Positions 39,649 to 58,162 of a DNA stretch of 64,000 bases are shown here, piece by piece. The position numbers and the translations under genes were made by a program. Origin of the DNA: Natronolimnohabitans sp. A-GB9. Lineage in GTDB: Archaea > Halobacteriota > Halobacteria > Halobacteriales > Natrialbaceae. The notes under the pieces were generated by a model. That model saw only the letters and a program-made list of their open reading frames with translations, was not told the DNA's origin and searched no databases. The stretch is from the NCBI RefSeq assembly GCF_030848565.1, contig NZ_JAVDDV010000006.1:124001-188000 (forward strand). Direction: 5' to 3'. The stretch's first letter is position 1; each line of letters starts with the position of its first letter.

Positions 39649-40110
39649 CTATGTACCACCAGACCCGTCTCCTGCTATCGTGTACCTCGTGATCTCGTCG
39701 GATTCGTCGACCGTAACGTCGACGGACTGCCCCTCGGGCCGGAAGATATCCCGCACCGCCGCTTCCGGCCGCGGTGCGGTCTCGGTTGGAAAGATCAGTT
39801 CGACCGTTCCGTCGACGTCGTCCCCGCGTCGCTCGGCGGTTGCCTGTACGACCGATTTCTCCTCGAGGTGGACTGTTATCGCGACCGGCGGCCGCTCGGT
39901 CGTGGCTGGCTCCGACTCTGCCTCGAACGAGACGGCCCGAACGCCGTCGTCCCGTTCGAACGCACGAACGGTGTCGGTCGGCACCGTCTCGCCGTACTCC
40001 GCTTCGAGATACGCCTCGAGTCGAGTGACGTACTCGCTTTCGAGCGCGATGTCCGCGAGCGCGTCCGCTTTCTCGTCGTCTATCTCCGTCAGTCGGGGGT
40101 GGTCGTCCAT
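39649..40110 (-). CDS. Hypothetical protein beside the origin
   Basis: A 153-residue acidic protein, MDDHPRLTEIDDEKADALAD, ending ITRYTIAGDGSGGT. No recognised domain. The start at 40110 is chosen because upstream frames run through the origin boxes. It is transcribed away from the origin, the reverse of the orc1 gene. Confidence 0.65.
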   Translation of the reverse strand: MDDHPRLTEIDDEKADALADIALESEYVTRLEAYLEAEYGETVPTDTVRAFERDDGVRAVSFEAESEPATTERPPVAITVHLEEKSVVQATAERRGDDVDGTVELIFPTETAPRPEAAVRDIFRPEGQSVDVTVDESDEITRYTIAGDGSGGT

Positions 40111-40210
40111 GCCGGTCGCCAGACCGACTGACGTGAAAAGCGTTGGTCTCGGTTGCACTCGCTGTAAGCGGTGTGGCGATACCCACACTCGTCGGCGGGT
40201 AGCGGACCGA

Positions 40211-40509
40211 CACACCCCGTACCGAGTGAAACACCGCGTTCGCGACCGACAACGACGGCGCCCTCGAGGCCGGGAGTGGAAACGACTCCGGAAAGCGACT
40301 CTCCAGTCCGAAAGCGAATGTTCAACACACCACGTACCGAGTGAAGGAGCGAACGGAAGTGAGAGGGTACCACCCACACCCCGTACCGAGTGAATCCGCC
40401 AGCGAGTGTGGAGACTCGAGGAGGTACGAGACGTCGGCTTCCTCACACCTCGTGCCGAGTGAACGGGTTGGATCCAATGGATGGCCCCACACACCTCGTA
40501 CCGAGTGAA
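40211..40509. repeat. Left ORB cluster, five boxes
   Basis: Five boxes, each ending CCGAGTGAA, with variation only at a few positions (CACACCCC, CACACCAC, CACACCTC). The spacing is uneven (about 115, 49, 69 and 46 bp), so this is not a tandem array. The last box is followed about 43 bp on by TATATAA (40552). Confidence 0.85.
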
Positions 40510-40614
40510 TGGGATAAAAGGGACCCCTGGGGGAAGTGCTGTTTTGCGAGTGGTATATAAAAGAGTGTGAGATACGGTGAATCTCGAGCGTCAACCCTCC
40601 ACCGTCCCCCGATA

Positions 40615-40775
40615 CGTAATAGTAATATAGAAAGATACTATCTATCTAGATAGTACAACAGTATCTATTCTAGTTGTCTATCCTAGTTTCTTTTTTCTAC
40701 CCTGATCCCATCCTAATTTCCCATCCTAATTTCCCATCCTAATTTCCCATCCTAATTTCCCATCCTAATTTCCAC
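40615..40775 (+). other. AT-rich unwinding region with 13-bp tandem repeats
   Basis: The AT-rich stretch begins near 40615 (TAGTAATATAG, ATCTATCTAGATAG). Five perfect tandem copies of CCCATCCTAATTT occupy 40707-40771. It is by far the most AT-rich DNA in the window and sits at the centre of the inverted boxes, as expected of a DNA unwinding element. Confidence 0.8.
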
Positions 40776-40865
40776 TCGAGTACCGTTCCAGTTCTGCGAG
40801 TACCGATCCAACGAACTCTGTCGTATGGACCGGTTCGCCCCAGCAGTCGACGGGTGGAACGCCAA

Positions 40866-40957
40866 TATAGTATAGTTGTCACTGAAAGCCAACATACACC
40901 TGACCACCGGACGGCGTTGCGATTGATGAATAGTTCTGTCCGTCGGTATCAGTAGCT
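40866..40957. repeat. Family C element within the origin
   Basis: It shares CGGACGGCGTTG (reverse complement CAACGCCGTCCGG) and CAGTAGCTACTG with the element at 57611-57691. The ends are imperfect here. It lies between the unwinding region and the right box cluster. Confidence 0.5.
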
Positions 40958-41033
40958 ACTGTAGCCATCTCCCAGTCTGCAGCAGACCGTACGATCATCC
41001 CGAGACGTCTCGTCGACTGTTCTCGGTCCCGAT

Positions 41034-41521
41034 TTCACTCGGTACGAGGTGTGTCTCTCTGTTCCAGATATATAAGCAGTCCCTGTTTCCAAGCAAGACG
41101 GTTCGAACGACCGGTTCATGTGGGATCACTCGGTACGAGGTGTGTCCCGCCACTGGAAACTAAACCCGCTTCCGAAGGCTTTTCACTCGGTACGAGGTGT
41201 GACTCTCCCCCGCATCGGATTATATAAACGACAACGAACCAACCGATAGACGCGCTCTAATCCCGATTCGTGTGGGATCACTCGGTACGAGGTGTCTGTT
41301 GCACGAGACCGTTTCTCGAGGGACCATCCGGGATCGAAGGAGTTACTCGGGATCGAAGGAGTTACCCGGGAGCGACCTGCTTCCATCGTGGGGGTACTTC
41401 CAGGTGACCGTTCACTCGGTACGAGGTGTGTCTCCCCTACCGCTCTAGTATATAAAGAAGGAGAAAAACGCCTACAGAGGGGCTGAAGCGCAGTTTTGTG
41501 ACTGATCACTCGGTGCGAGGT
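41034..41521. repeat. Right ORB cluster, six boxes
   Basis: Six boxes in the opposite orientation to the left cluster. Three are followed within about 15-20 bp by TATATAA (about 41069, 41220 and 41449). Between boxes four and five is a 19-bp direct duplication, CGGGATCGAAGGAGTTACT, at 41329-41347 and 41348-41366. Also present is CCACTGGAAACTAAA near 41150, which looks like the other haloarchaeal origin box type (CACTGGAAAC). Confidence 0.85.
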
Positions 41522-41529
41522 CAGGAAGA

Positions 41530-41536
41530 TTTATAA
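41530..41536 (+). promoter_or_regulatory. TATA box of orc1/cdc6
   Basis: TTTATAA is 24-30 bp before the ATG at 41560. The last origin box (41505-41521) is directly upstream, so Orc1 binding could repress its own gene. Confidence 0.6.
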
Positions 41537-41559
41537 TTCACATCGCACATCCTGTTTCT

Positions 41560-42792
41560 ATGGCCGATCAGAGCTCGTTTGACGATTCTGAAGATATCTT
41601 TCAGGTGGGTGGGATCTTCTCTAATCGGGAACTCGTTCGCGTCGGACACGTTCCGGAGTTAGACCGTGTCGTCGGGCGCGACGAGGAGGTCCGGGAGGTG
41701 GGTGCTGCACTCGGGCCCGCTATCCAGGGCGATCCACCCGAGACGACCATCATCTACGGCAAGACCGGGACGGGAAAGTCCCTCGTATCGCGGTGTGTCA
41801 CGAGAGAGGCACGCCGACGGGCCGAGACGAACGACGTCGACTTACAACACGCCTACGTCGACTGTTCCGACTACCAGACGGAGGCGAAAGCCAGCCGTGA
41901 GATGGCTCGTCAGTTGTACGACAACATCGTCGACGAGCTCGACGAAGAGGTGAAAAACGACACGAAAATCCCTCGTGTTGGCATCGGAGCCGCGGATTAC
42001 CGGGACATCACGTGGGAACTCCTCGAGGAGAAAGGCGTCGACTCCTTCGTAGTGATCTTAGACGAGATCGATAAGCTCTCCGGAGACGCACTCCTACGGA
42101 GTCTCTCCCGCGCACGCGAGAGTGGCAAAATCGATACGCACATCGGCATCATCTGTATCAGCAACAAGATCGAGTATCGGAAGCGACTCAACGAACGTGT
42201 CGACTCGAGTCTGCAGGACAACGAACTCGTCTTCGATCCCTACGACGCCGAGCAACTCCGTGCGATACTGGAAAACCGGCGGGACGCCTTCGTCGAAGGC
42301 GTCCTCGACGAAAGCGTGATCCCGCGAGCCGCTGCGCTGGCCGCTCGCGAACACGGCGACGCCCGGAAGGCCGTCGATACGTTCTACGAGGCCGGACGGC
42401 TCGCCGAGAAGGAGAACTCGGACAAGGTGACGGAACGACACGTCGACAAGGCGATTCGACGGGCGGAGGTAAACCGATTCGAGAAGCTGGTAAGCGGCCA
42501 GACACCCCACGTGAAACTCCTCTTGCGGTCGATCGCGTTGCTCACACAGTCCGAAGACGGGGAGTGGTTCCGCACGGCGAAGATTTACGATCTGTACAAA
42601 CGCCTCGCGGAGAAGGAAGCGAGTGATCCGCTTTCCTACGACCGCGTCTCTCGACTGCTGAAAGAACAGTCGTTTTTGGGGATCACCGAGAGCGAACACA
42701 CGGGTGGTGGCAAAGGCGAGGGGAGCTACCTCGAGCATCGATTGCTCCGGGAGCCCGAGATCGTCCTGAGTGCCCTCGACGAAGCGGAGTGA
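41560..42792 (+). CDS. orc1: Origin-binding protein Orc1/Cdc6
   Basis: A 410-residue AAA+ initiator. Walker A is GKTGTGKS at residues 67-74, Walker B is VVILDEIDKL near residue 168, sensor region is IGIICISNKIEYRKR near residue 195. A C-terminal winged-helix DNA-binding domain follows (KIYDLYKRLAEKEASDPLSYD, about 345-365). It binds the adjacent boxes and loads the MCM helicase. It is transcribed away from the origin. It may match any of several orc1 paralogues. Confidence 0.95.
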   Translation: MADQSSFDDSEDIFQVGGIFSNRELVRVGHVPELDRVVGRDEEVREVGAALGPAIQGDPPETTIIYGKTGTGKSLVSRCVTREARRRAETNDVDLQHAYVDCSDYQTEAKASREMARQLYDNIVDELDEEVKNDTKIPRVGIGAADYRDITWELLEEKGVDSFVVILDEIDKLSGDALLRSLSRARESGKIDTHIGIICISNKIEYRKRLNERVDSSLQDNELVFDPYDAEQLRAILENRRDAFVEGVLDESVIPRAAALAAREHGDARKAVDTFYEAGRLAEKENSDKVTERHVDKAIRRAEVNRFEKLVSGQTPHVKLLLRSIALLTQSEDGEWFRTAKIYDLYKRLAEKEASDPLSYDRVSRLLKEQSFLGITESEHTGGGKGEGSYLEHRLLREPEIVLSALDEAE

Positions 42793-43102
42793 GACGGACG
42801 ATACGCGTGACGCGTGTATCGTTTCCCACCGCTTCTCACCGGGTTCTCGAACCGGCCGGTTTTCCCTCCCCGAACGCCCACACTCCGTTTAAGTATCTCT
42901 CGTCACAAGCTGGTGCTATGACGGGAAGTCGTTCGTTCTCACGTTCTCTAGGTCGGTAGCGACGCATCGATCGTCGCATCTCTTCGTCGTCTCTCTACGG
43001 ATCACTGTCTTTCGTTCTGACGATTCCCGTATCGTCGCCATCGTCGGGCTGTTTGAATATCGAGGCGATATCGATTAGTGACTGGTTGTGGTAGATAGCC
43101 GT
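42793..43102 (+). other. Intergenic region with a possible 13-residue leader frame
   Basis: About 310 bp. TTTAAGTA near 42888 precedes by about 27 bp a short frame at 42918-42959 (MTGSRSFSRSLGR). This arrangement is neat but may be chance. Otherwise nothing is seen. Confidence 0.4.
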
Positions 43103-56797: not shown

Positions 56798-57160
56798 CGA
56801 AGGGACGTACCGGCGAGACGTGTATAAGCGCTGTGTTCGGCGCCGCGACGACCGGTATCGTTCGCCGATCGAAACGGTCCGGTTGCGGACAGTGAAACGT
56901 CTGTAGGATGGCTGTGTGTCCTCCAGCGGATCTGTCGATCGCCATCTGGGGCGTTTGTCGGCAGTGAAACCGAGCCGTGACGGGGTTAGCGGTCGTGTAG
57001 TCCTCGAGTCCGATCGATTGTGCGGATCACAACGGCGGGCGAGGTTGCAACTGTGTGCTCACCTCGAGTTAACCGCGACTAATCCATTCGAATCCGAACT
57101 AATCGTCAGAACGGACTGTCTCCATTATTTGTCGTTCCGTCCTCGCCTCGAGTGCACACT
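56798..57160. other. Intergenic region
   Basis: About 360 bp between the divergent UPF0200 gene and the acidic lipoprotein gene. The segment is less GC-rich near 57060-57130 and should include both promoters. Nothing else seen. Confidence 0.4.
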
Positions 57161-57574
57161 ATGACAGCACGAAAACTCGATCGGCGTCGATTCACGAAGG
57201 TCCTCGGTGTCGGTGCCGTTGCGGCAGTTGCCGGCTGTATGGACGACGACGAAGAGGACAACGGACTCGAAGACGACGAGGAGAACGGACTCGAAGACGA
57301 TGACGATGGAATGGATGACGAAGAGAACGGACTCGAGGACGATAACGACGAGATGGATGACGAAGAGAACGGACTCGAGGACGATAACGACGAGATGGAT
57401 GACGAAGAGAACGGACTCGAGGACGATGAGGAGAACGGTCTCGAAGACGATGGCGACGATGGTCTCGAGGACGATAACGACGACCTAGGCGACGATGACG
57501 ACGATGATCTCGAGGACGACGAGATGGAAGACGATGACGATGACGAAGACGACGATCTGATGGACGACCTCTAG
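57161..57574 (+). CDS. Acidic repeat lipoprotein
   Basis: A 137-residue protein with a Tat signal (LDRRRFTKVLGVGAV) and lipobox VAGC, followed only by Asp/Glu-rich repeats of the MDDEENGLEDDNDE type. The DNA has two perfect 42-bp copies (57311-57352, 57353-57394) and a 33-bp third. It is predicted to be anchored on the cell surface as a highly acidic tail. It may be a surface-charge or cation-binding protein; no family recognised. Confidence 0.68.
   Translation: MTARKLDRRRFTKVLGVGAVAAVAGCMDDDEEDNGLEDDEENGLEDDDDGMDDEENGLEDDNDEMDDEENGLEDDNDEMDDEENGLEDDEENGLEDDGDDGLEDDNDDLGDDDDDDLEDDEMEDDDDDEDDDLMDDL
57311..57427 (+). repeat. 42-bp coding tandem repeat
   Basis: Unit ATGGATGACGAAGAGAACGG and onward to GACGAG, in two perfect copies and a 33-bp partial third. 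Because 42 is a multiple of three, copy changes keep the frame. Confidence 0.85.
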
Positions 57575-57950: not shown

Positions 57951-58054
57951 GGGCACGTAGCTCAGTCTGGATTAGAGCGTCGGACTTCTATCCCCGTCGC
58001 GATTGCGGTGGGGGAAGACATCCGACGGTCGTGGGTTCAAATCCCATCGTGCCC
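57951..58054 (+). tRNA. tRNA-Arg(UCU) with an intron
   Basis: Acceptor GGGCACG pairs with CGTGCCC at 58048-58054. The D arm is GCTC...GAGC, the T loop TTCAAAT. The anticodon stem TCGGA/TCCGA surrounds CTTCTA then an insert. The insert is a canonical splice site: helix CTTC/GAAG, with 3-nt bulges TAT (57989-57991) and ACA (58018-58020), followed by CCCC/GGGG. Cutting in the usual places removes 57991-58019 (29 nt) and leaves loop CTTCTAA with anticodon UCU at 57987-57989. The 3' 20 or so bases are repeated downstream. Confidence 0.9.
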
Positions 58055-58162
58055 GTTGTCTGCGGACAACGTGAGCAGTAACGGCACCGCGGATTTGAAT
58101 TAGACCGAGGTTCTGCGCGAAGCGAAGGTCCTCGGGCGTAGTTCAAATCCCATCGTGCCCGT
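58035..58162 (+). other. Duplicated tRNA-Arg 3' end, att-like
   Basis: GTTCAAATCCCATCGTGCCC with GT after it is found at 58035-58056 (the end of the tRNA gene) and again at 58141-58162. The 84 bp between differ. A repeated tRNA 3' end is the mark left by a tyrosine-recombinase element that used the tRNA gene as its site. The rest of such an element is not present in this segment, so it would be a remnant. Confidence 0.65.

Follow-up and report, generated by a model that had tools for sequence, protein, structure and literature searches.

A candidate self-contained Orc1/Cdc6-dependent replication origin with unusual boxes, probably acquired as a cassette, in Natronolimnohabitans sp. A-GB9

The 64-kb stretch of DNA analysed here (the window, positions 124001-188000 of contig C56 in a 4.3-Mb draft genome of 72 contigs) very probably carries a self-contained, Orc1/Cdc6-dependent chromosomal replication origin which was acquired as a cassette, and whose predicted activity may be either expressed or dormant. 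Since the contig has at least 11 tRNA genes, it was taken as chromosomal. In a previous sequence-only reading a complete origin had been proposed beside orc1; its layout and its gene stand on the sequence, while its activity is a prediction. The locus is a variant of the known orc-adjacent haloarchaeal origin. What is new is that its boxes lack the extended halophile G-string, and that a pair of boxes 93-95 bp apart around an AT element, abutting the orc promoter, is a module that has been conserved between genera, three copies of it being found here. A haloarchaeal cell has at least a dozen Orc-box pairs, and the locus bears on how each Orc picks its origin; the unusual recognition sequence and the repeated layout make this start-site code testable.

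Results

Eleven 19-nt boxes of the TCACTCGGTACGAGGTGTG type are spread over positions 40211-41524. The left arm consists of five boxes on the minus strand, at 40211-40229, 40326-40344, 40375-40393 and 40444-40462 (1 mismatch each) and at 40490-40508 (exact), and the right arm of six boxes on the plus strand, at 41035-41053, 41126-41144, 41183-41201, 41278-41296, 41412-41430 and 41506-41524. Ten of the eleven have 0-1 mismatches to TCACTCGGTACGAGGTGTG and the last one (41506-41524) has 3. In shuffles of the window the mean number of box matches was 0.02, and 11 matches were reached in 0 of 100. The GTGTG end of every box faces outward from the core, a polarity shared by most other orc loci of the genome. 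The five boxes in one direction and six inverted ones that had been described earlier were thereby all recovered in their places. That reading had also set a genome search for the box as a check, and the outcome was in its favour: in the whole 4.3-Mb genome the sites with at most 1 mismatch to TCACTCGGTRCGAGGTG are the 11 boxes only, a single further site has two mismatches, and the three-mismatch sites are scattered, so the boxes are confined to the orc locus and are not evenly distributed. The exact box strings were not found in open-access papers.

The arms enclose the predicted duplex-unwinding element (40617-40766), which in the nearest-neighbour stability profile is the least stable 150 bp within the window. 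Five tandem copies of the 13-mer CCCATCCTAATTT are located at 40707-40771 on the plus strand, the stretch being 76% pyrimidine on that strand; they had been reported as perfect, and all five are indeed error-free. The 13-mers were considered as a conserved feature of the family, and this was rejected, as they are absent from the cores of the relatives. Since T-rich single strands are preferred by the Orc1 of A. pernix (PMC8287685), the 13-mer tract may be held by the Orc once it is melted.

The initiator gene orc1/cdc6 (41560-42792, plus strand) encodes 410 aa. Its product matches TIGR02928 with 372 bits against a cut-off of 181 bits, and its best solved relatives are crenarchaeal Orc structures (A. 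pernix ORC, 2v1u, E 7e-49). Comparison with the copy on plasmid pHTUR04 of Haloterrigena turkmenica gave a dN of 0.09 and a dS of about 2.5, thus the protein is under purifying selection; with dS near saturation the dN/dS value of about 0.04 is rough. The family of this Orc is patchy: with E below 1e-145 required, it is present in 39 of the class's 391 genomes. It is found side by side with the box family in Haloterrigena, Halobellus, Halorubrum, Halocatena, Haloferax, Halomarina, Halostella and others. When the window was compared with pHTUR04 by BLASTN, only box-sized stretches (92-100% identity) aligned upstream of box B (41506).

The genome has 19 orc-like matches, this gene included. Twelve further orc genes have boxes of their own, all different and mostly with a run of at least 4 G. 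A linkage of the Orc family to the box was described as a rule by Wu et al. 2012 (PMC3528665), and the origins of H. hispanica depend on the co-located cdc6 (PMC3936714). The earlier proposal that the adjacent Orc1 recognises this box type is supported by the TIGR02928 match, the boxes unique to the locus, the co-occurrence of the two families and the differing boxes of the 12 other orc genes. Because of the gene family, the locus-unique boxes, the pairing across genera and the other boxes of the other orc genes, the locus is best interpreted as an orc-adjacent origin that its own Orc recognises. Across the loci L001-L015 of the same genome at least 13 orc genes with distinct box types were seen, mostly with outward-facing arms, and at one of them (L004) the box, TTTCACCGGAAACGTGGTGTG, is also without a G-string.

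The boxes of the window end in GAGGTGTG. A four-G run is present in only two of the eleven (40211 and 40375) and an extended G stretch in none of them, whereas at least GGGG is seen in most other boxes of the genome. A terminal G-string is described for haloarchaeal boxes and has been used in surveys to select them (PMC3528665, PMC4595724). The extended G-string is essential for the oriC1 of H. hispanica (PMC3936714), and its lack in the boxes here counts against the origin model. Since the published surveys required it, similar origins may be missed by such ORB surveys. In the clade of this Orc the usual box end is GGTG, with GGGG in a nested group; two changes are required on the tree, in which some long branches are unsurely placed. 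The switching between GGGG and GGTG inside one Orc clade offers a natural experiment by which the G-string-reading contact could be mapped.

The haloarchaeal oriC1 has two inverted ORB arms beside cdc6, with the box ends outward. The window locus is like it in the paired inverted arms, the adjoining cdc6 and the outward box ends, but its Orc belongs to another family, and the oriC1-like boxes of the genome end in GAAGGGGTGGGGGGG and not in GAGGTGTG. The TTCCAGTGGAAAC-like core with a long G-string, by which an oriC1 is recognised, is absent from the window locus. A hint of the better-known box near 41150 had been noted earlier; this turned out to be a chance match, a lone CACTGGAAAC at 41151 with no G-rich tail, which occurs once in 260 kb compared with about 0.6 expected by base composition. 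The real CACTGGAAAC-type (oriC1-like) boxes of the genome are on contig C34.

The right arm can be divided into three modules on the plus strand, each with a box A, an AT element and a box B: module 1 (41035-41144) with box A at 41035-41053, ATATATAA and box B at 41126-41144, 91 bp start to start; module 2 (41183-41296) with box A at 41183-41201, TTATATAAA and box B at 41278-41296, 95 bp; and module 3 (41412-41524), in the ancestral position, with box A at 41412-41430 (-148), TATATAAA and box B at 41506-41524 (-54), 94 bp. An A-B spacing of 93-95 bp, near -148 and -54 from the orc start, was found in 21 of 28 non-redundant loci, where an AT octamer usually lies about 36 bp past the start of box A. 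Further box pairs stand 93-94 bp apart in pHTUR04, and Halocatena has two at 95 bp. The spacers of the module copies in the window are more alike than shuffles, and for this reason the copies look like old duplicates in which the spacing was kept. A tandem 19-nt repeat, CCGGGATCGAAGGAGTTAC (2.5 copies, 41328-41375), lies between modules 2 and 3. A 94-bp promoter-proximal pair was also looked for in the other orc families of the genome and was rejected, as the box positions there do not show one.

Box B of module 3 ends at -36 and is directly followed, at -30, by the TATA-like element TTTATAAT (41530-41537, plus strand), which from its sequence would belong to a presumed leaderless orc promoter. 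The G end of this box is degenerate in the window and in most of the relatives, as if its bases were shared with the promoter. This contact with the promoter, together with the TATA-like elements which come after each A box and the precedent of Orc1-2 of Sulfolobus as a non-initiator (PMC9738581), would fit an Orc acting as a transcription regulator with the boxes as its operator array. We consider this very improbable, as there is no box elsewhere in the genome to make a regulon, so that the sites over regulon promoters expected of an Orc1-2-type protein are missing, and the inverted arms, which have the outward polarity of most other orc loci, enclose the DNA that melts most easily in the window.

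In relatives outside the clade of the window the box also appears within the gene. The codons that follow the Walker A lysine resemble TCACTCGTTACGAGGTGTG, the family box, in most of 20 non-redundant genes, and in 14 of these 20 the P value was 0.007 or less when the P-loop stretch was shuffled by codon usage. The codons chosen there depart far from the usage of each gene. Among 131 fully conserved residues, codon agreement was strongest at the Ser of the P-loop stretch (z 10) and second strongest at the next Leu (z 5.7), the shared ancestry of the relatives being controlled for by the remaining conserved columns of these genes. Thus in these relatives, and not in the window, the P-loop codons of Orc spell the box, as read from the sequences, with the strongest synonymous constraint of the gene, which is likewise a new observation. 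P-loop codons SLV[T/A]RCV spelling TCACTCGTTACGAGGTGTG were seen in the orc of L149, L153, L154, L158, L160, L166 and others. In the orc of the window itself such a box is unsupported (score 15/19, null mean 13.1, P 0.15), and the in-gene box is not part of the system of the window as it stands.

The inserted cassette as a whole (40147-43059) comprises the origin, orc and about 270 bp downstream of it, and was delimited by a break in homology, the flanking genes being neighbours in a relative. Homology to two relatives, G107 and the congener G098, ends at 40110-40146 and picks up again at 43060; the flanking genes are separated by 2999 bp here, as opposed to 162 bp in G107. The site is empty in G107, and both genomes are without this Orc (best matches 48-49%); for these reasons the cassette was presumably gained in the lineage of the window, or else lost repeatedly, gain being the simpler explanation. 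In G098 (L116, contig C47) a different gene, by its looks a chemotaxis-type transducer, occupies the site, which may therefore be an insertion hotspot.

Since the nearest relative sits on plasmid pHTUR04 and the neighbours are without the cassette, one might think of the decayed remains of a plasmid or virus replicon that had integrated. This is hardly to be expected, however, with strong purifying selection on orc and near-perfect boxes; no integrase, transposase or other plasmid gene was recognised among the ORFs of the 2.9-kb insert. The GC skew along the 260-kb contig gave no signal (p 0.67 versus block shuffles), which may be expected with many origins.

Discussion

Wu et al. 2012 (PMC3528665) selected origins by an adjacent full-length Orc1/Cdc6 of more than 300 aa, inverted repeated intergenic boxes, an AT-rich unwinding element between the arms and a G-string ending each box. 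The locus has an Orc of 410 aa, 5 minus and 6 plus boxes and the AT-rich element at 40617-40766, and the G-string is absent. The latter may have been loosely applied, because pHTUR04, which has the same box type, is listed there with 3 orc genes and all 3 of its origins predicted. The window locus is consequently better regarded as a variant than as a strict member of the orc-adjacent origins.

The closest known system is that of pHTUR04 (NC_013747), whose Orc (WP_012946114) is 86% identical. It carries the same box, position 1 of which is A or T, and shares the inverted arms around an AT-rich core as well as the boxes placed at -148 and -54. It differs in being a plasmid, in lacking the 13-mer repeats, in having upstream DNA that is not alignable outside the boxes, and in its box count, which is seven upstream and four downstream, as opposed to eleven upstream and none downstream in the window. 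By its description, oriC2-cdc6E of Haloarcula hispanica is also similar: it is a chromosomal origin that was acquired, has a cdc6 of its own and contains many boxes (PMC3936714). Its negative control is exerted by oriC2D, a cluster of 11 ORBs on the downstream side, whereas in the window no box lies downstream of orc. Four to five boxes of the same direction, like oriC2D, were seen downstream of orc in Haloferax massiliensis (L053) and in pHTUR04 (L110).

The origin may well be intact but dormant, competent on a plasmid and silent in the wild-type chromosome as long as the primary origins are retained; this is a special case of the origin model and does not compete with it, and we rate it as a serious possibility somewhat short of an even chance. 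The precedent is oriC4-cdc6H of Haloferax mediterranei, by description likewise an orc-origin pair recently acquired in a chromosome, which is dormant in the wild type (PMC4595724). Haloarchaeal origins can be dormant after having been newly gained, and the predicted origin of the window could accordingly be active or dormant in the wild type. The recent acquisition, indicated by the two genomes without the Orc and the empty site, speaks for dormancy, while the very well preserved box arrays and orc, and a number of boxes larger than in most relatives, speak against it.

The predicted steps, from binding and unwinding through helicase loading to autoregulation and activity, can be put together as follows. 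The Orc of the locus would bind only its own boxes, leaving the other origins of the cell unbound. Once occupied, the inverted arms would bring MCM helicases onto the core (40617-40771), within which the pyrimidine-rich 13-mer tract would melt. Since box B of the module nearest to orc lies right against the TATA element of that gene, a rising level of Orc would be expected to shut off its own promoter, a proposal drawn solely from the position of that box. The two extra right-arm modules and the five left boxes would raise the local Orc binding, and more binding could mean stronger initiation, tighter titration, or both. With its different box the origin could coexist with oriC1 and some dozen other Orc-box pairs without cross-talk.

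A more far-reaching interpretation can also be offered, tentatively and as one that we hold to be rather less probable than its opposite. The Orc-box family would have lost the halophile G-string and would work through the fixed A/AT element/B module (93-95 bp, about nine helical turns), which would serve all at once as promoter of orc, as switch for its autoregulation and as unit for helicase loading, and which is triplicate in the window; in sister lineages the initiator would also bind inside its own gene, at the P-loop codons which spell the box. If this were true, a single piece of DNA would in those lineages be both ATPase motif and origin recognition site. The fixed module and the in-gene box of the relatives allow specific and cheap tests of initiator self-dosing in archaea.

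Two further observations were made elsewhere in the window. A tRNA gene at 57951-58055 was matched by Rfam and missed by ARAGORN, and it probably contains an intron, since it is about 105 nt long. The ORF at 57152-57574 starts like a lipoprotein and contains long tandem repeats of acidic character (42 nt unit, EENGLEDD).
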